Below are positions 3,486-14,198 of a stretch of DNA of 64,000 nucleotides, piece by piece. The notes under the pieces were generated by a model. The model saw only the letters and a program-made list of their open reading frames with translations, did not search any database and had not been told where the DNA came from. Location: the NCBI GenBank assembly GCA_017522225.1, contig JAFWZR010000026.1, positions 1-64,000 of the forward strand. Reading direction: 5' to 3'. The translations under genes were made by a program, and so were the position numbers. Position 1 is the stretch's first letter. Every line of letters starts with the position of its first letter. This stretch comes from Clostridia bacterium. GTDB taxonomy: Bacteria; Bacillota; Clostridia; Oscillospirales; Acutalibacteraceae.

Positions 3486-4706
3486 ATGAAGCTTATAGCA
3501 TTGTTGTTGACAATTATCACGCCGTTATTAACTATGATAACATGGAATCCTTTGGCTTTTCTTGATAAGGAAATTCCTGTAGCAGAGGAAAAGGTTGACG
3601 GATTTATGAAGGGTGTCTGCCACGCAGAGCCTCAGTACGATCTTCTTAATGATGCAGGTATCGAATGGTTCCGTGATGATATTCCGTTCCCTTATAACAG
3701 CGACGGTACAATTTCCATGAGTTATCTCAGATGGAAAAAGGAAGCTCTCGAATATGTCGAAAATGGTATTCGCATTTTTGGTATCACACCGTATCCCGAT
3801 GATTATATTGAGTATGGCCTCGATCCCAGAGATCCTGAAAACAGAGATGAAATTCAGGCGATTGCCCGTTTTTATATGAACGACCTGAGAGGTATTGTCG
3901 GTGCATTCCAGATCACTAATGAAATGGGTATTGACCGATTTACTCTTCCGCTGACTCTTGATGAGGCTGCTGATTTTATCGGTATGCAGCTTGAAGCAAT
4001 GTATCCGATTCGTGAGGATATTATTATCGGTTATAATCTCGGAGGTCTTTCTATTGCAACACTTCCGTTCAAGATGATGGAATATCACAAGTATTGCGAC
4101 TATGTCGGTGTTGATATGTATATGGGTTGCTTTGAACCTGTGCTTAAAACACCTGATCAGTTCATCACAATTCTTAACTTTGTCCGTAAGGTAACTCAGA
4201 AGCCCATTATCCTTTGTGAATTCGGTTATATCGGTCTCGGCGAACCTAAGACTGATGAAGAAAAAGCGGAAATCCTTAAGAGCTACGGCTTCAACAGTGA
4301 AAAGGAAGCAAGACAGAATATTGATGAATTCATAAACAATCTTCCGAAGGACCTTAAGGAAGAGATTATCGAGGACTACAGTGACAGAACTCCTGAGGAG
4401 AGAGCATCGCTTATCTTTGACGGTGAGTACAGCAATCATATCTACACAGAGCTTCAGGAGGGCTTCGGACTTTATAAGTATCCGCATACTCCGGAAGGTC
4501 AGGGTGAATTCTTCGAGTATCTTATCCCGAAAATCAGAAAGCTTGACTATCTGATCGGCTGCTTTGTTTACTGCTGGCAGGATAGCGGTGACTGTTATGT
4601 TTGCGGTCAGGTTGAATGTCCGGTTGAAACCAAGTGGGGACTTGTTGATTACGAGGGTAATCCGAAGCCTGCGTATTATGCTGTTAAAGAAGCATACGCT
4701 GATTAA
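3486..4706 (+). CDS. Membrane-anchored TIM-barrel glycosidase-like protein
   Basis: 406 residues. An N-terminal hydrophobic segment (about residues 2-27) without an obvious cleavage site suggests a signal anchor, placing the rest outside the cell. The body looks like a clan GH-A TIM barrel. An ITNE motif (Glu146) lies where the acid/base residue follows strand 4, and ILCEF (Glu245) lies where the nucleophile ends strand 7. A late tryptophan-containing segment (CFVYCWQDSGD) resembles strand 8 of such barrels. No specific GH family is assigned; GH5-, GH2- and GH79-like proteins are all possible, and the substrate cannot be told. It stands alone between two terminators. Confidence 0.6.
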   Translation: MKLIALLLTIITPLLTMITWNPLAFLDKEIPVAEEKVDGFMKGVCHAEPQYDLLNDAGIEWFRDDIPFPYNSDGTISMSYLRWKKEALEYVENGIRIFGITPYPDDYIEYGLDPRDPENRDEIQAIARFYMNDLRGIVGAFQITNEMGIDRFTLPLTLDEAADFIGMQLEAMYPIREDIIIGYNLGGLSIATLPFKMMEYHKYCDYVGVDMYMGCFEPVLKTPDQFITILNFVRKVTQKPIILCEFGYIGLGEPKTDEEKAEILKSYGFNSEKEARQNIDEFINNLPKDLKEEIIEDYSDRTPEERASLIFDGEYSNHIYTELQEGFGLYKYPHTPEGQGEFFEYLIPKIRKLDYLIGCFVYCWQDSGDCYVCGQVECPVETKWGLVDYEGNPKPAYYAVKEAYAD

Positions 4707-4718
4707 ATTGAATAAATT

Positions 4719-4752
4719 GCCTTGCAGGGTAATGCCTTGCAAGGCTTTTTTA
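4719..4752 (+). terminator. Terminator after the glycosidase-like gene
   Basis: GCCTTGCA (4719-4726) / TGCAAGGC (4738-4745), followed by a T-rich stretch. It insulates the lysis cassette that begins just downstream. Confidence 0.85.
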
Positions 4753-4765
4753 TTTAAAAATACTA

Positions 4766-4794
4766 TTGACAAACCGAACAAATGTTCGTACAAT
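4766..4794 (+). promoter_or_regulatory. Consensus sigma-A promoter of the lysis cassette
   Basis: Perfect -35 TTGACA (4766-4771) and near-perfect -10 TACAAT (4789-4794) with an ideal 17-bp spacer. The spacer is almost wholly occupied by a LexA operator, so the promoter should be strong but tightly repressed. Confidence 0.85.
4775..4788. promoter_or_regulatory. LexA (SOS/DinR) box inside the promoter spacer
   Basis: CGAACAAATGTTCG matches the Bacillus-type LexA consensus CGAACRNRYGTTYG at every position, with 6-bp perfect arms around AA. It lies between the -35 and -10 of the cassette promoter, where bound LexA would block RNA polymerase. This predicts induction by DNA damage through RecA-stimulated LexA cleavage. 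Site and position are read directly from sequence; regulation is inferred. Confidence 0.85.
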
Positions 4795-4802
4795 AATAAG
4801 TG

Positions 4803-4824
4803 AACTACCGATAAAGCGGTAGTT
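4803..4824 (+). promoter_or_regulatory. Leader hairpin of the lysis cassette mRNA
   Basis: Perfect 8-bp inverted repeat AACTACCG (4803-4810) / CGGTAGTT (4817-4824) with a 6-base loop, lying at the expected transcript 5' end. It could stabilise the mRNA or be an operator for the cassette's own HTH protein. No T-run follows, so it is not a terminator. Confidence 0.6.
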
Positions 4825-4856
4825 AAGGGAAGAAATCTCGGTGAAGGGAGGATAAA

Positions 4857-5510
4857 ATGAATACAATTTCTGATACAGTGATATCTGTTGAGGAGGCAAG
4901 AACAGCCCTACGGTGTATGCGTTTGTGCAATCTTGACGAATATGAGGCGCTGGAAAGTGTGGACAGCCTTGTCGAAAGAATACGCAGAATCAGTATGGCA
5001 AAGCTCGTTGAAAGCATTATTGAAACAAAGCTTACCGAAAACCAAAGAACAGTTGTGCAGTCGTTCTGGTTTTCAGAAAAAAACACATCACAGATAGCGC
5101 GTGAACTCGGAGTATCGCAATCAAATGTTTACCGTACACTCACACGAGCAAACGAAACAATCAAAGAATTACTGACACCGTTGGTAACTTATTTCAGCGA
5201 CCTGCCCGATGTGCAGGTTGCTCCTGTTATTTTCAGAGAAACGATGAAAACTTGTTCGGCAAGAGAAGGCGAGGCAGATACACTTTCTGCCGTGCTTACC
5301 AATATACGCCTGTCAAAAGCAGTAGCGCCTGAATGTGCAGCTCAGGCGATGTGCATTACTGTCAAAGAGCTCGTAAAAATCGAAAGCGGGAAGGTGAATC
5401 CTACTGTTGATTATATCCGACGCTTTTCACAGGCATTTAATGTCGAACTTAATTTTAGTATTGTAAATGGTAAAGGAAGATACGAATGGAAAGAAGTCTT
5501 ACAGATTTAA
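4857..5510 (+). CDS. Hybrid regulator: sigma-70 region-4-like HTH plus XRE-like HTH
   Basis: 217 residues, first gene of the lysis cassette. Residues about 59-106 (LTENQRTVV...TSQIARELGVSQSNVYRTL) look like a sigma-70 region 4 or sigma-like helix-turn-helix of the kind used by phage late-gene activators. Residues about 146-198 look like a Cro/C1-type HTH, with short spacing after a linker. No sigma region 2 is visible, so it is unlikely to be a complete sigma factor. Start ATG follows GGGAGG. The 3' end overlaps the next gene by 25 bp. A plausible role is amplification, timing or autoregulation of cassette expression after LexA release; this is inference. Confidence 0.7.
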   Translation: MNTISDTVISVEEARTALRCMRLCNLDEYEALESVDSLVERIRRISMAKLVESIIETKLTENQRTVVQSFWFSEKNTSQIARELGVSQSNVYRTLTRANETIKELLTPLVTYFSDLPDVQVAPVIFRETMKTCSAREGEADTLSAVLTNIRLSKAVAPECAAQAMCITVKELVKIESGKVNPTVDYIRRFSQAFNVELNFSIVNGKGRYEWKEVLQI

Positions 5511-5725
5511 GTGAAGAATACTTTAAGGCGGCAGAGGATATCGGCAGTCTTATCGAAAAATACAGAAAAAAGCTTCAGGAAGCTTATAAGGCAAGGGACT
5601 ACTTGCGTACATACGAAATCAAGCGTAAGCTTACAATCTTTTATGACCAGAAAAGAGATATTCTTGATACGGCATACACACTTAAAAACTATTATGAAAA
5701 AGACTGTGAGGTGATGTCAGCGTGA
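5486..5725 (+). CDS. Small predicted coiled-coil protein of the lysis cassette
   Basis: 79 residues, very rich in Lys, Glu and Tyr with heptad-like spacing (residues about 5-70), no membrane segment and no signal. I do not recognise a family. The ATG at 5486 lies 5-6 bases after AAGGAAG inside the preceding gene; the end overlaps the next start as GTGA. Strict translational coupling suggests it acts with the neighbouring regulator or lysis proteins. Confidence 0.65.
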   Translation: MERSLTDLSEEYFKAAEDIGSLIEKYRKKLQEAYKARDYLRTYEIKRKLTIFYDQKRDILDTAYTLKNYYEKDCEVMSA

Positions 5726-6084
5726 ATGATATCACCTTGCTTGTAACGGAGAATAAGCTTGAAATCATAAAAGACACCTATACAACAGGCGGAAGTGTTG
5801 ACTATGATACTTGTACATTTAACTTTGATACAGTGTGGAAGTATTTTTACAAAACCGCAGTTTTTATGCGTGAATCATCGGACGCTTACCGTGTTGAGCT
5901 TGTAGATAATTCTTGCAAAATACCGGCAGAATGTATGCGTACTGAGGGTATTCTCAAAATCGGACTTTACGGTGTAAACGAGGACGGAGTTGTTATAACA
6001 ACAAACTTTGTTACACACCGCATACACGAGGGTGTCGGTGAAGCAGGTTTATGGGTTGAAGAGGACTCTGCTTACAATGATTGA
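5722..6084 (+). CDS. Phage baseplate-upper-protein-like domain protein
   Basis: 120 residues. The pattern (N-terminal beta strands, VDYDTCTFNFD, WKYFYKTAVF, IPAECMRTEGILKIGLYGV, then a loop ending IHEGVGEAG) resembles the N-terminal domain of BppU-like tail or receptor-binding proteins of Firmicutes phages. In phages that domain is normally the start of a longer fibre protein; here it is the whole protein. The GTG start at 5722 is preceded by GAGGTGA and overlaps the previous stop by four bases. The family call is from motif memory, without a search. Confidence 0.55.
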   Translation: MNDITLLVTENKLEIIKDTYTTGGSVDYDTCTFNFDTVWKYFYKTAVFMRESSDAYRVELVDNSCKIPAECMRTEGILKIGLYGVNEDGVVITTNFVTHRIHEGVGEAGLWVEEDSAYND

Positions 6085-6241
6085 TATTGAAATGGAAATC
6101 TCGTCTCTTTTCCTTGCGCTTCGTCTGTCAAAGCAGGTTGAGGAAAACAGGGAAAGAGGCGAGGATGATTTTACACTGTTTAAGAATTTTGCGGCAATTT
6201 TAAGAGAATACGAAATCAGTAAAGGGAAGAGTAATAAATGA
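6077..6241 (+). CDS. 54-residue helical protein of the lysis cassette
   Basis: The ATG at 6077 overlaps the preceding gene by 8 bp and the ATGA junction at 6238-6241 couples it to the endolysin gene. The product is acidic and helical (LFLALRLSKQVEENRERGEDDF), with no membrane segment. A longer version starting further upstream would overlap the previous gene heavily and is unlikely. It resembles the short accessory ORFs found before phage lysis genes (XkdX-like position), but no family can be assigned. Confidence 0.55.
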   Translation: MIDIEMEISSLFLALRLSKQVEENRERGEDDFTLFKNFAAILREYEISKGKSNK

Positions 6242-6933
6242 GCAAAATATCAAATATAATTTTTAACGGAAAAAGCCATTACATAACCTCAAAGTATGGC
6301 AAACGTACCGTGCTCAACACCTCAGCAGGTGCAACACAGCCGTTCCATTACGGTACGGATTACGGTACGGGCGGAAAAAAGCTTGCACAATATTCAATTG
6401 AGGACGGTACCGTGCTTACTTGCGGTAAGGCAACGGATGGAGCGTTGTATGTCTGGGTAAAGTATCCGCGCATCAACAAAAAGATGCTTCACTACCATCT
6501 TGACAGCTATGCAGTCAAGGCAGGTCAGAAGGTAAAAAAAGGCACGCTTCTGGGCTACACGGGTAAAACAGGCAAGGCTACGGGTGTGCATCTGCACCTT
6601 GCGGTAAAGGATCTTACAACAGAAAAATACGAAGACCCCGAAAAGTTTGCGGCAACATATATCGAGCCGCCAATTTACAAAACAGGAACATATAAGGTTG
6701 CAGTAAATCTTCTGCGTGTCAGAAGCGACCCGTCCACCAAGCATATGTATAAGCGATTCAAAGCTCTCACGGCAAACGCTCAGGAGCAGATAAAGAGGCT
6801 TAACTCAGGAAGATCAGCCGACGGTCTTGTAAAAGGATGCGTGTGTACGGTGTCGGCTGTCAGTGAAAATTGGGGCAAGATTCCATCCGGATGGATATGC
6901 CTTGATTACTGCATACGGGCGGTGACGGCTTGA
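6238..6933 (+). CDS. Endolysin: M23 metallopeptidase with C-terminal SH3-like domain
   Basis: 231 residues. Residues about 15-135 form an M23 (LytM/lysostaphin-type) peptidase with the zinc ligand set HxxxD (His37, Asp41), the HYH motif (His85, His87) and HLH (His118, His120). It should cleave peptide cross-bridges of peptidoglycan. Residues about 150-231 look like a bacterial SH3 cell-wall-binding domain. There is no signal peptide, so export depends on a holin, as for phage endolysins. The ATG overlaps the previous stop as ATGA, and the stop overlaps the next TTG start. It is the catalytic core of the cassette. Confidence 0.85.
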   Translation: MSKISNIIFNGKSHYITSKYGKRTVLNTSAGATQPFHYGTDYGTGGKKLAQYSIEDGTVLTCGKATDGALYVWVKYPRINKKMLHYHLDSYAVKAGQKVKKGTLLGYTGKTGKATGVHLHLAVKDLTTEKYEDPEKFAATYIEPPIYKTGTYKVAVNLLRVRSDPSTKHMYKRFKALTANAQEQIKRLNSGRSADGLVKGCVCTVSAVSENWGKIPSGWICLDYCIRAVTA

Positions 6934-7151
6934 CAGACATCTTAACGGCACTTGTCGCCTTTGCCGGTACGCTTGTAGGTTCACTCGGCGGAATACTTGC
7001 GGCAAATAAGCTGACGGTTTACCGTATTGAACAGCTTGAACAGAAGGTTTCAAAGCACAACAATCTTGTTGAGCGTATGTTTCTTGTAGAAAGCTCAACA
7101 AAATCAGCACATCACAGAATAGACGAACTCAGGGAGGAGATAATAAAATGA
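6930..7151 (+). CDS. XhlA-like membrane protein, holin partner
   Basis: 73 residues starting at TTG (6930), overlapping the endolysin stop by four bases. One transmembrane segment (about residues 5-25, glycine-rich LVGSLGGILAANKL) is followed by a coiled-coil tail. Several Firmicutes phages have XhlA/hemolysin-type or similar small membrane proteins next to a holin and endolysin. It ends in an ATGA junction with the holin gene. The family match is tentative; position and topology fit well. Confidence 0.6.
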   Translation: MTDILTALVAFAGTLVGSLGGILAANKLTVYRIEQLEQKVSKHNNLVERMFLVESSTKSAHHRIDELREEIIK

Positions 7152-7396
7152 GAAGAATAAATCTGAAGGGCGTTTCGGTGCAGACATGGGTCAGAACAAT
7201 TGTCCTTGTTCTTGCACTCGTCAATCAGGCACTTGTAATGTTCGGTATCACCAAAACACAGATTGAGCTTGAACAGTGGACACAGTATGCATCATACATT
7301 TTTACGGTTGTAACAGCCGTCTGGTCGTGGTGGAAAAACAACAGCTTTACCGACAAGGCACAGGAAGCAGACATTATCATAAACCCACAAGGGTAG
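7148..7396 (+). CDS. Phi-LC3-type holin
   Basis: 82 residues with two membrane segments (about 12-32 and 45-65) joined by a short turn, then a charged tail, as in phi LC3/class II holins. The N-terminus (INLKGVSVQTWVRTIVLVLALVNQ) and the central LEQWTQYASYIFTVVTAVWSWW region fit that family well. It should form membrane lesions that release the signal-less M23 endolysin. A strong GGGAGGAG precedes the ATG, which overlaps the preceding stop. Last gene of the cassette, before a large hairpin. Confidence 0.8.
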   Translation: MRRINLKGVSVQTWVRTIVLVLALVNQALVMFGITKTQIELEQWTQYASYIFTVVTAVWSWWKNNSFTDKAQEADIIINPQG

Positions 7397-7414
7397 TTCA
7401 TCGTATAATGCAAA

Positions 7415-7444
7415 GACCTCCGTCCGATTATCCGGACGGAGGTC
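7415..7444. terminator. Bidirectional hairpin between holin and gpmI
   Basis: Perfect 12-bp GC-rich repeat GACCTCCGTCCG (7415-7426) / CGGACGGAGGTC (7433-7444) between convergent genes, with only short T-runs on either side. It likely ends both the lysis cassette and the glycolytic operon. Confidence 0.8.
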
Positions 7445-7465
7445 GCATTTTATAAGGTATGATTA

Positions 7466-11274: not shown

Positions 11275-11309
11275 AAAGTGAATCAAAGTATGTTTCGGGA
11301 GTGTGCAAT

Positions 11310-14198
11310 ATGAAAAAATGCTTAAGCTTTATTCTCTTCTTGTGCATGATGCTTTCAATTGTGAGCGTCACTTTTACTTTTGTATCGGCATCAGAGCTTG
11401 AATCAGTAAGCTCAACGGCTACCTGTGAAAAATCGGATGAGCCGTATTTTATCTATGCAAAGCAGGGGCCTGCGAGTGAATACGGATATGCGCCTGTAAT
11501 TTATTACGACAGTGAAGGTAATATCATTGAAGAAGATACCCGTCTTACGTTTGAAAAGGGTTTTCATACGATGAGCACAATATTACCGTCTGCATACGAT
11601 TCACGCAGCAATAATTATATAACATCCGTTAAAAATCAGGGTGCTTCAGGAAACTGTTGGGCTTTTGCGGCAACAAGTGCTCTTGAAACAAGCAGCATTG
11701 TCAACGGCTATACTCAGCTGAGCTCAACAGATTTCTCAGAGCCTCATCTTGCGTGGTTTGGTGTTAACACAAAAAGTTCAGACCCGAATGATCCGAACTG
11801 TGGAGAGGGCAGCACCGGTGATGCTTATGCTTCGGGCGGTCATGCCTATATGGTTCAGGCGGCACTTGCACGTTGGGCAGGTGTAGCAGACGGAAGAAAT
11901 GTGTCGTCTGATTATCCGACAAGTACATCACAGTTTTCTAAACTGCCAAAATACACTGATGCGGACAGATTTGACACCGGCTCAGGTGTTGTACTCAAGT
12001 CAATGGAGTGGTGCGACACGGTAGAGGATGTCAAACAGTGGATTATCGATAATGGTAGTATAACTGCATCTTATTATCATATGGAGTCTTCAAACTACAT
12101 AAAATACGGAAGCAATTATGTGGCATATTGCTACACTGCCGATGATGACCCCGGAACTAATCACGCAATTACCGTTGTAGGCTGGGATGATAATTATTCC
12201 GCAAGCAAGTTCAATACTAAAGCTAAACCCGAGGGTAACGGTGCATGGCTTTGTAAAAACAGCTGGGGCTCGTCCTGGGGAAGTGCCGGTGGTTATTTCT
12301 GGATTTCGTATTACGATAAGACTATCTCAAAATTCTGCGGTTATACCGTACAACCTGCTGATAAATACGAAAATAATTACACATATAATGCTGACTGGGA
12401 ATTTGAAATGCTCGGCAATTCATCAAAAGAAACAATCGCAAATGTTTTTAAAACGAAGTATAGAGAGCAGCTCTCCGCAGTATCAACCTGGACTTTAAAT
12501 GATGATGTTACGGTGAATGTGAAAATATATAAAAACGTTTCAGCGGATAATCCTGAAGACGGTGAGCTGATGCAGTCATTAACTGTTGAGTTACCCAGAA
12601 AAGGATACCATACAATAGATTTACCTCAAGCGGTGCTTCTTGAACACGGATGTGTATTTTCTGTTGTTCTTGAAATGTCAGTTCCTACTGGCAATGTGAA
12701 CATTCCGGTAGAAGGTGGTGATGAATGTACATCAACACAAGGACAGAGCTTTTTCCTTGATGGCAGGACTTGGTATCATACCGAAAACAATTATTTAAAC
12801 AGAGATTTGAACAATTTCTTTATTCAGGCTTTTACGGACACAGTCTGCACTCATCCCGAGAGAGAAACCGTAACAAAGGTTTATGATGATTGCTACAATC
12901 AGGGATACGAAAGAGTTATATGTACAGACTGTAATGATGTTATAAGCGAAATTCTGTTCCCGATGAAGGATCATACCTCGGGCGAATGGAAAATTATATC
13001 GGAAGCGAGCTGTACTAAGACAGGTCAGCAGGCAAGGGATTGTACAGTCTGCGGGTACAGAATCGAAACGCAGACAATACCGATGAAAGAGCATATTCCG
13101 GGTGAGTGGACAGTTGAAAGAGTTGAGAGCTGTACCATGACAGGTGTGCAAATCAAAAAATGTACGGTGTGTGATCAGCTTGTTGAAACTCAGTACATAC
13201 CTGCGGCCGGACACACTCCGGGAGATTGGGAGGTTAAAGTTGTTGCGAACTGCTGGAGAGAAGGCACTCTGGCAAAAACATGTACAATATGCGGTGTGAC
13301 GTTGGAATCACAAAAAACTCCTAAGCTTGATCATGATTATACATACAGTGTAGTCACAAGTCCTACCTGTAAGCAAAGCGGTGTCGGAAAATATACCTGT
13401 TCTATGTGCAACGGCGGATATCAGGTGAGTATTGATCCGACAGGTGTGCACACATATTCCGAGTGGGAGCTTGTGAAAGCACCGACCGCCGCAGAAGACG
13501 GCGAGAAAAGACACACCTGCATTTACTGTTCAGAGCCTGAAAACGAGCCCATTAAAGCAACAGGTTTTGATTTTAAATCGGGTGTGACGGTTGATTATAT
13601 TACAGGCATTATCAGCGGAATAAAAGCGGGTGAAGTATCACTCGAGCCGTATTTTGAACTTGCCGATGAAAAGTATTCGTGGTCGTATGAAAATTCGGGC
13701 AGACTCGGGACGGGCACAAAGGCATTTCTTATGAACGGTGAAGAAGTTATCGGTGAATATACAATTCTCCTTTACGGTGATGTAAGCGGTGACGGCTGGT
13801 ATGACGGCGAGGATGCGGTTATCGTAACTTGCCTGACAAAAAATATGTTTGGTCAAGACAGCTTTAATGAAGTTTATTATATGGCTGCGGACTGTAATCA
13901 TAACGGCTCAATAGATGTGACTGATGTAAAGCTGCTCAATGATGCGGGATTGTTACTCGCATCGGTTGACCAGTCTCAGACTGCAGAGGTGCTTTTTGAA
14001 ACCTCTTCGGACTACATTGCGTATATTGATATTATAGAGCAATCAGTTGAGCCCGGTAATGAAGCTCAGCAGGATCCGGAAGACGCTGTAAATGATACGG
14101 AAAAAGAGTCTGAAAATGCAGAAAATCCGTGGAGCATAATTGATATTTTAATCAGTTTTATCAAAGCTTTTATAAGTATATTTTTAAAGTTGTGGTAA
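11310..14198 (+). CDS. Secreted papain-like (C1) peptidase with Cys-ribbon repeats and dockerin
   Basis: About 962 residues from the ATG at 11310, eight bases after GGGAG; a GTG at 11301 overlaps that site and is less likely. A signal peptide occupies residues 1-28. The C1A peptidase domain (about 90-355) has the oxyanion Gln (KNQG), Cys116 (GNCWAFAA), His285 (NHAITVVGW) and Asn317 (KNSWGSSWG). A beta-rich domain follows. Residues about 515-745 hold four to five CxxC-type repeats (CTVCGYRIETQ, CTVCDQLVETQ, CTICGVTLESQ) resembling zinc-ribbon treble clefts. Next comes a dockerin (GDVSGDGWYDGEDAV and a second DxNxNGSIDVTD loop, about 820-885) and a hydrophobic or amphipathic C-terminus. It is probably docked at the cell surface by a cohesin. 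The substrate is unknown. Confidence 0.85.
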   Translation: MKKCLSFILFLCMMLSIVSVTFTFVSASELESVSSTATCEKSDEPYFIYAKQGPASEYGYAPVIYYDSEGNIIEEDTRLTFEKGFHTMSTILPSAYDSRSNNYITSVKNQGASGNCWAFAATSALETSSIVNGYTQLSSTDFSEPHLAWFGVNTKSSDPNDPNCGEGSTGDAYASGGHAYMVQAALARWAGVADGRNVSSDYPTSTSQFSKLPKYTDADRFDTGSGVVLKSMEWCDTVEDVKQWIIDNGSITASYYHMESSNYIKYGSNYVAYCYTADDDPGTNHAITVVGWDDNYSASKFNTKAKPEGNGAWLCKNSWGSSWGSAGGYFWISYYDKTISKFCGYTVQPADKYENNYTYNADWEFEMLGNSSKETIANVFKTKYREQLSAVSTWTLNDDVTVNVKIYKNVSADNPEDGELMQSLTVELPRKGYHTIDLPQAVLLEHGCVFSVVLEMSVPTGNVNIPVEGGDECTSTQGQSFFLDGRTWYHTENNYLNRDLNNFFIQAFTDTVCTHPERETVTKVYDDCYNQGYERVICTDCNDVISEILFPMKDHTSGEWKIISEASCTKTGQQARDCTVCGYRIETQTIPMKEHIPGEWTVERVESCTMTGVQIKKCTVCDQLVETQYIPAAGHTPGDWEVKVVANCWREGTLAKTCTICGVTLESQKTPKLDHDYTYSVVTSPTCKQSGVGKYTCSMCNGGYQVSIDPTGVHTYSEWELVKAPTAAEDGEKRHTCIYCSEPENEPIKATGFDFKSGVTVDYITGIISGIKAGEVSLEPYFELADEKYSWSYENSGRLGTGTKAFLMNGEEVIGEYTILLYGDVSGDGWYDGEDAVIVTCLTKNMFGQDSFNEVYYMAADCNHNGSIDVTDVKLLNDAGLLLASVDQSQTAEVLFETSSDYIAYIDIIEQSVEPGNEAQQDPEDAVNDTEKESENAENPWSIIDILISFIKAFISIFLKLW

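Follow-up and report, generated by a model that had tools for sequence, protein, structure and literature searches.

Organization of the putative lysis locus

The window, that is the whole 64-kb stretch of DNA analysed here, belongs to a 1.576-Mb MAG that is 69% complete (G000); nine of 12 named relatives, MAGs classed as Clostridia, Ruminococcaceae or Oscillospiraceae, come from the gut of cattle, goat, deer or horse. Seven ORFs (A to G) occupy positions 4857-7396 on the 3' side of a promoter, with intrinsic terminators on both sides (Table 1). Given the strong terminator upstream and the hairpin downstream, the region from 4766 to 7444 looks like a closed transcription unit. Its upstream neighbours are elongation-factor-type genes and a gene for a 406-aa protein, while gpmI- and tpiA-type genes follow downstream on the opposite strand (all named by eye). 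Elsewhere in the window, positions 11301-14198 encode a peptidase of the papain family (C1), 965 aa long, that includes a lectin-like domain.

Table 1. Features of the cassette and of other loci near LexA-type boxes; positions without a locus prefix refer to the window.
Feature	Position	Strand	Basis or remark
Intrinsic terminator at the end of the upstream gene 3486-4706	4719..4745	+	12-pair stem and T-run; fold 4705-4757, z-score -5.4
Sigma-A type promoter TTGACA-17-TACAAT	4766..4794	+	Sequence and promoter scan
Predicted LexA box CGAACAAATGTTCG within the promoter spacer	4775..4788	+	Pattern, matrix, conservation in relatives
Leader; place of the dyad AATAGnTGTnCTATT in 12 relatives, degenerate here	4795..4824	+	8-bp hairpin at 4803-4824
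A, 217-aa regulator with sigma-70 region-4-like HTH and XRE HTH_3	4857..5510	+	Pfam over cut-off; PDB profile matches
B, 79-aa protein, charged, probably helical (by eye)	5486..5725	+	After A in 16/16 relatives' cassettes
C stump, N-terminal phage-type domain (phrog_19695), 120 aa	5722..6084	+	Comparison with the relatives' full-length protein
D, 54-aa ORF overlapping C, no family	6077..6241	+	tblastn matches at 62-72% identity in 6/16 relatives, plus one weak match
E, 231-aa M23 endopeptidase endolysin	6238..6933	+	PF01551, 8.1e-14; no signal peptide seen by eye
F, 73-aa protein, phage family phrog_1863	6930..7151	+	3.8e-18; by eye, a hydrophobic segment at the N-terminus followed by a charged helix
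G, 82-aa SPP1-type holin	7148..7396	+	PF04688, 2.8e-28; TIGR01592 over cut-off
Bidirectional terminator-like hairpin closing the cassette, before minus-strand gpmI	7415..7444	.	Fold 7400-7460, z-score -6.8
Barnase/barstar loci near LexA-type boxes	L171:7071-7946; L172:8573-9217
Large boxed proteins	L169:10222-12630; L170:9495-11972; L168:1725-3401

An earlier note on this DNA had described a seven-gene cassette, and seven ORFs are indeed present, but one of them, C, is an internally deleted stump. The putative regulator A matches only region-4 sigma models; no sigma region 2 was found in it by Pfam, and by the same models it is not a complete alternative sigma factor with regions 2 and 4. Its NCBIfam matches, to sigma70-ECF and to ArpU, a phage packaging/lysis regulator, both fall below cut-off. 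Protein B has no confident family in Pfam, the phage families or NCBIfam. The cassette encodes a holin (PF04688/TIGR01592) and a muralytic enzyme (PF01551) in one predicted operon, the single operon for E and G being deduced from gene spacing and the terminators. In E, residues H37, D41, H118 and H120, which we take to be catalytic, are invariant in all 16 sequences aligned. PADLOC returned DNA-binding-type matches for A and for the S24 repressor described below, and no match among the six other proteins given.

The state of C differs among genomes. In the window, an in-frame deletion of about 540 aa joins residue ~117 to the last residues of the protein and preserves the overlap with D, while in 13 relatives full-length C is an uninterrupted ORF of ~615-660 aa with an M14 carboxypeptidase-type domain; the frame is broken in G005, cut by a contig end in G006, and G016 has a short ORF. 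The stump and the full protein have phrog_19695 in common, and the missing part is phrog_4722, a zinc carboxypeptidase; a protein of this type is a tail protein in phage StB20, encoded in the tail module upstream of the XkdX and holin genes. In an alignment of C that omits G005 (broken frame) and G006 (cut), only L041-L044 have, by eye, a full or almost full set of M14 zinc-ligand places, and the remaining relatives show changes there, which suggests that the domain probably serves more for binding than for cleavage. The N-terminal domain of C gave nothing below E 1.6 against the PDB, and our impression is of a BppU-like fold.

A predicted LexA box within the cassette promoter

The promoter consists of TTGACA (4766-4771), a 17-nt spacer (4772-4788) and TACAAT (4789-4794), matching 11 of 12 consensus positions, as its -10 hexamer is TACAAT and not TATAAT. 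The earlier note had placed CGAACAAATGTTCG within this spacer, ahead of the seven ORFs, and both the sequence and the promoter scan show that placement to be exact. It is a position at which RNA polymerase would be blocked, as expected for a gene of the LexA regulon. The arms of CGAACAAATGTTCG are perfect and its centre, AAAT, is not palindromic; it is the sole match to CGAACNNNNGTTCG with no mismatch in the 64-kb window. With a LexA matrix derived from 13 SOS sites of relatives, themselves chosen by the strict pattern, the site scores 23.9 versus 14.0 for the next best place in 64 kb. Of 60 random 64-kb sequences from a first-order Markov model, one had an equally good site, and the sequence by itself is not beyond chance, being roughly a 2% event per window. 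What removes chance as an explanation is the placement in the spacer together with a distance to TTGACA that is the same in 16 of 17 cassettes (see below). The pattern RAACANNTGTTY occurs nine times in the 1.576-Mb, 69% complete genome of the window, and in this incomplete genome only the lexA and cassette sites are intergenic and just 5' of a gene. The remaining seven lie within ORFs, in one case (L057) right where the ORF begins. A CGAACCGCAGTTCG site at G000:C1:70219 was set aside because it is located within an ORF.

To read the site as a LexA box, as the earlier note had done, presupposes a lexA gene in the same genome. This gene was found at G000:C11:131585-132163 (192 bits, over cut-off) with its own box, CAAACAAATGTTTG, and the A-G bond, Ser and Lys of the protein are visible by eye. 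All 18 genus genomes have lexA, with CAAACAAATGTTTG upstream in each. Moreover, among 51 box loci examined, sites of the cassette form precede DNA polymerase IV-type genes (five), other Y-family polymerase genes (two) and uvrB (one); these loci are a subset of the sites, 17 given directly by the search and 34 selected from its hits without the lexA sites and the majority of those at cassettes or with an AATT or ATAT centre, and many of the 51 lie within ORFs or without a nearby gene start. One gene each of polymerase IV, other Y-family polymerase and uvrB was confirmed by family models. The presence of this form at such genes points to a real LexA box type, and the reading of the cassette site as a LexA box is supported at the sequence level by the presence of lexA, by the retention of the box in orthologs and by a form common to SOS genes.

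The comparison with recA, proposed together with that of lexA, proved uninformative. The motif was found upstream of none of the 17 recA genes of the relatives (L107-L123), which makes recA no useful comparator, and recA was not found in the 69% complete genome of the window; the lexA half of the comparison held. In this respect the genus is unlike C. difficile, the recA of which is described as a LexA target (PMC4234289). In five genomes (L086, L128, L141, L143, L155) the gene behind a LexA-type box encodes a protein of ~90 aa whose N-terminal segment is hydrophobic. The one example tested had no match in Pfam or NCBIfam, and as a guess it might be a division inhibitor of the YneA/SulA type.

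Conservation and inheritance of the cassette

An ortholog of A, nearly full length and 34-70% identical, is present in 16 of the 17 other genus genomes, the exception being G017. Conservation of the box upstream of orthologous cassettes, on which the earlier reading hinged, was borne out: TTGACA and the box stand at one fixed offset in 16 of the 17 genus cassettes, that of the window included, and the box is absent from the G006 cassette. Of the 16 boxed cassettes, 15 have TAnAAT after 17 nt and G003 has CAAAAT. A LexA box also lies upstream in three of five more distant members of the family. The order A-B-C-E-F-G is kept in 15 of 16 relatives, with C as a short ORF in G016, and the cassette of the 16th, G006, is cut by a contig end. 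In seven relatives tblastn identified the same housekeeping genes at the flanks as in the window (one contig stopping just after the holin gene), and in eight others the flanking genes are, by eye, non-phage genes; no virion structural genes were seen next to the cassette among the neighbours in the window or in these two sets of relatives.

In six pairs drawn from eight genomes, dN/dS was 0.02-0.19, where finite, for A, B, the N-terminus of C, E, F and G, values to be read with caution as dS was often near or above 1, or saturated; the comparison genes gave 0.03-0.06 (gpmI) and 0.03-0.08 (the 406-aa neighbour). Four Mantel tests, on 17, 15, 16 and 14 genomes, showed the distances of A and E to track those of LexA and RecA, with r 0.83-0.92 and 0 of 2000 permutations in every test. 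The conserved promoter and box, gene order and flanks, the low dN/dS and the distances that follow LexA and RecA argue that the cassette is a vertically inherited functional unit and not recent prophage debris.

The same data bear on the possibility that the locus is the end of a decaying prophage, with the box as a functionless relic. Such an origin would fit the phage relatives of the lysin, the holin and F, as well as the fate of the M14 part of C: the window has lost it by deletion, G016 is without it, the frame is disrupted in G005, and the zinc-ligand places are changed in many relatives (by eye). However, A, B, the C N-terminus, E, F and G all have low dN/dS, the promoter and box are kept in 16 of 17 cassettes, and the catalytic residues of the lysin are invariant in 16 of 16 sequences, which makes decay very unlikely.

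At the family level the regulator occurs in varied company. In G032, an A-type regulator, an amidase_3 and F- and G-like genes lie behind a LexA box, while G023 has the regulator before a GH25 enzyme, LysM and holin without a strict box. In G031 it precedes an NlpC/P60 enzyme and stands beside an S24 repressor, likewise without a strict box. G020 and G026 have a boxed A with no lysis genes nearby and no TTGACA before the box, G020 also having a B-like ORF. These last two cases suggest that A may serve more than the lysis operon.

A probable second repressor and an accompanying dyad

In 12 relatives a second LexA/CI-like protein is encoded beside the cassette, divergently from A (83-97 bits in the lexA search). 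The protein of one relative, when put through Pfam, proved to be HTH_3 plus Peptidase_S24, and by eye an A-G cleavage site, a Ser and a Lys can be recognised. The same 12 relatives have a dyad, AATAGnTGTnCTATT, 18 nt past the start of the box core and over the predicted start site. Genome-wide, AATAGNTGTNCTATT is found in exactly the 12 of 18 genomes that have the S24 repressor, once in each apart from G010, which has a second dyad, situated within the last part of an ORF and close before another one; as a control, the pattern in reverse matched four times in the 18 genomes. In G000, G013, G014 and G009 neither the dyad nor a second LexA-type match was found, and the gap from A to the neighbouring gene is only about 140-200 bp. 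All four of these genomes have the box as CGAACAAATGTTCG, versus none of the 12 relatives with the S24 repressor. Two genomes are uninformative in this comparison: G006 has neither box nor dyad, its S24-type protein being encoded on a separate contig, and G017 lacks the cassette.

A tree of LexA and RecA, in which G000 and G011 were placed by LexA alone, puts the four repressor-less genomes on one side of a branch of low support (46), and the E tree needs two changes to account for them. The absence of repressor and dyad thus represents one or two events, and their joint absence is a suggestive, unreplicated association. The ancestral control was probably double, by LexA and a dedicated S24 repressor, in which case control by LexA only would be the derived state of the group to which the window belongs. 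Outside the genus, G031 has a similar dyad after TTGACA (by eye) and its S24 repressor next to A, and no LexA box was found there. The leaders of G000 and G013 form hairpins of similar size and unrelated sequence, both of -10.9 kcal/mol; the leader fold of G016, which keeps the dyad, is also -10.9, and those of G014 and G009 are weaker.

The presence of a second repressor raises the question of whether the box might be the operator of this protein, or of another regulator, and go unused by LexA. The cassette box, being GAACAAATGTTC-like, does differ from the AAACAAATGTTT at lexA. Yet among the genes read, those for polymerase IV, other Y-polymerases and UvrB have the GAACAWWTGTTY form; where the S24 repressor is missing, in four genomes, the box and its perfect arms are retained; and the dyad that accompanies the repressor is a different one. 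An operator unused by LexA is therefore highly improbable, the least probable of the explanations considered here.

Phage relatives and tail genes

No structural genes were seen adjoining the cassette in the flanks examined, which argues against a prophage or tailocin locus. In a search for these two families in the incomplete genomes of the genus, the tape measure PF10145 was found in three of 18, that of the window included, and the sheath PF04984 reached cut-off in none of the 18. In the window's genome the tape-measure gene (PF10145, 3.6e-47) lies on an 8.4-kb contig, G000:C16 (L259), together with a sheath match below cut-off; other ORFs of this contig look, by eye, like contractile tail genes. 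The cassette might then be the lysis module, acting in trans, of a tailocin or prophage encoded elsewhere in the genome, a proposal that draws on this contig and on the tail-type nature of C in the relatives (phrog_4722; StB20 tail module). It is set against the distribution of the genes, with PF10145 in three and PF04984 in none of 18 genomes (two tail families, incomplete genomes) versus A in 17 of 18, and against the lack of any RAACANNTGTTY site on the tail-gene contig. Tail genes of other families could have escaped this search. We regard a service of this kind to a distant particle as unlikely.

Searches of viral sequences, being limited by pattern or similarity, cannot prove absence. 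With an 11-row alignment of regulator A no relative appeared among 36 pattern stretches, and with the G031 regulator none among three, while lysin E had 14 relatives among 33 stretches; beyond matches to the HTH parts, these scans gave no relative of A. In INPHARED, nine records match A in part, none covering more than 43%, one record matches E in part, and 37 and 29 records match the M14 part of C and the holin, respectively. An order-wide search with the regulator alignment matched at least 284 of 297 genomes and was uninformative; among the matches listed, none outside the locus of the window spans more than about half of the model (the HTH domains). The literature search found no LexA-boxed free-standing lysis cassette in Clostridia, and one could still be in print.

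Other boxed genes and candidate released proteins

A second gene in the genus has a LexA box in its promoter spacer. It encodes a protein of ~455 aa beside manA in 11 of 18 genus genomes (L073, L074, L079, L071, L133, L135, L153, L160, L262, L263, L264), and in all 11 its promoter, TTGACA-18-TATAAT, has the same LexA box at the offset seen in the cassette. The protein has phrog_19695 in common with C and a BspA-type LRR match below the Pfam cut-off; two further genomes, that of the window among them, match it at the N-terminus only, and the match in the window's genome is its own C. No signal peptide is visible by eye in the ~455-aa protein or in the relatives' C. A GTG-TGCTAT element often follows and, by eye, resembles the cassette dyad without matching it.

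Further genes stand near LexA-type boxes (Table 1). A barnase-like RNase/barstar pair lies 119 bp from such a box in G013 (Pfam) and a barnase/barstar-type pair 219 bp from one in G002 (by eye). Large proteins with LexA-type boxes 110-330 bp upstream are encoded in G012, G004 and G006, that of G012 with a beta-helix match just below the Pfam cut-off; they are possibly further SOS-controlled fibre-like proteins. It is plausible that lysis would release fibre-type or toxic proteins; programmed death, DNA release or phage exclusion may be its purpose instead.

Such proteins would also fit a holin-mediated secretion of fibre-type proteins of the TcdE/UviB kind, in which most of the population is spared. 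Fibre-like genes without a signal peptide visible by eye occur in the relatives' operon and elsewhere behind a boxed promoter, and non-lytic secretion through holins is discussed in the literature (PMC9527704). The same operon, however, encodes an endolysin with intact catalytic residues, which would be superfluous for non-lytic export, and we consider this route improbable.

A putative SOS-triggered self-lysis operon and its relation to known systems

The interpretation that we favour, and consider likely, is that the cassette is a domesticated, phage-derived, SOS-triggered self-lysis operon of a genus of gut Clostridia, held by LexA. LexA bound between the -35 and -10 elements would keep the operon off; upon DNA damage RecA would trigger the self-cleavage of LexA, and the near-consensus promoter, once free, would transcribe A-B-C-D-E-F-G. 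The SPP1-type holin G, perhaps with F, would then open the membrane, whereby the signal-less M23 endolysin E would reach the wall and lyse the cell. Where an HTH-S24 repressor, probably self-cleaving too, is encoded next to the operon (12 of 16 relatives), it would occupy an operator over the start site and make this a double SOS lock, of which the group of the window would have lost the repressor and operator and kept the box with perfect arms. The anatomy of the sequence, its conservation, the purifying selection, the matching absence of repressor and dyad and the lack of phage genes in the examined flanks are seen directly; from these we infer binding by LexA and the S24 repressor, induction and lysis. 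The purpose of the lysis, be it the release of fibre-type proteins or of other contents, would be a step further removed. Beyond what the earlier note had described, the analysis mainly adds the second repressor with its dyad and the lack of both in the group of the window, as well as the truncation of a tail-type gene and another gene with a LexA box in its promoter spacer.

A more tentative reading, possible if doubtful, is that of a particle-less SOS-triggered lytic release, in which the damaged cell bursts out tail-fibre-like or toxic proteins and then lyses. LexA, with its box between TTGACA and the -10 hexamer, would here control unusually strong promoters of both the lysis operon and unlinked genes for proteins with a phage-type N-terminal domain. 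The proteins in question are C of the relatives' cassettes and the ~455-aa LRR protein encoded beside manA in 11 of 18 genomes, and the barnase/barstar-type pairs of two genomes lie near such boxes. In function this would resemble a tailocin that has no tail, with its genes scattered over the chromosome and vertically inherited, and the second repressor would be a safety lock that one group discarded.

As for the self-lysis operon itself, the view of the earlier note that damage control of a free-standing lysis module is little established has to be qualified, since a precedent exists in the alpRABCDE genes of P. aeruginosa (PMC7969949). These chromosomal, likely prophage-derived genes bring about self-lysis or programmed death upon DNA damage; they are described as encoding a repressor that cleaves itself, a positive regulator and lysis proteins, one of them a putative holin (PMC7969949). 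By working principle this is the closest system, and its three-part layout recurs in those relatives that have the S24 repressor. The present cassette differs from alp, so far as the latter is described, in the host LexA box within the cassette promoter itself, in the M23 endolysin and SPP1 holin and in the clostridial host. In addition, the window, G013, G014 and G009 are without a dedicated autocleaving repressor (the S24 type being present in 12 relatives), and A, by family models a sigma-region-4/XRE protein, is likened to AlpA by role alone. On account of these last two differences, the cassette of the window is not filed as a member of Alp.

Other systems share single traits with the cassette. 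In phage GIL01 of Bacillus thuringiensis, host LexA and a second protein hold the promoters of the lytic genes, which are damage-induced (PMC6182141). The combination of LexA and a second factor on lytic promoters recalls the present case, but GIL01 is a complete temperate phage, and its gp7 acts in complex with LexA according to the account given (PMC6182141), whereas the second repressor here seemingly acts on its own operator. The tail-to-lysis segment of Staphylococcus phage StB20 has a Zn-carboxypeptidase tail protein, small ORFs and a holin in similar order; the cassette, by contrast, is without adjoining tail, head or packaging genes and has the regulator A and a LexA-boxed promoter. 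Group A colicins have lysis genes and group B colicins are described as released by a prophage lysis module elsewhere, both being SOS-driven proteins that need a lysis function to exit the cell (PMC6240691). In the cassette, unlike in the colicin systems, lysis would rely on a chromosomal holin and endolysin, and the fibre-like proteins are known from genes alone. The genes uviA/uviB and tcdR/tcdE resemble the cassette in that a sigma-related regulator lies near a holin. UviB and TcdE are holins tied to protein release. Their regulators UviA, of a C. perfringens plasmid bacteriocin, and TcdR are described as sigma factors (PMC4885068), whereas A is without sigma region 2 by Pfam and the cassette has an endolysin.

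If the interpretation as a self-lysis operon is true, damage-induced chromosomal self-lysis, characterised in P. aeruginosa (alp), would also occur in gut Clostridia of an uncultured clade. LexA and, in most relatives, a second and probably self-cleaving repressor would share one promoter, and the absence of repressor and dyad combined with perfect box arms would constitute a natural experiment on the handover of a prophage-type switch to the SOS system of the host. Should DNA-damaging drugs trigger the cassette, treatment would not just arrest these bacteria but cause them to lyse.
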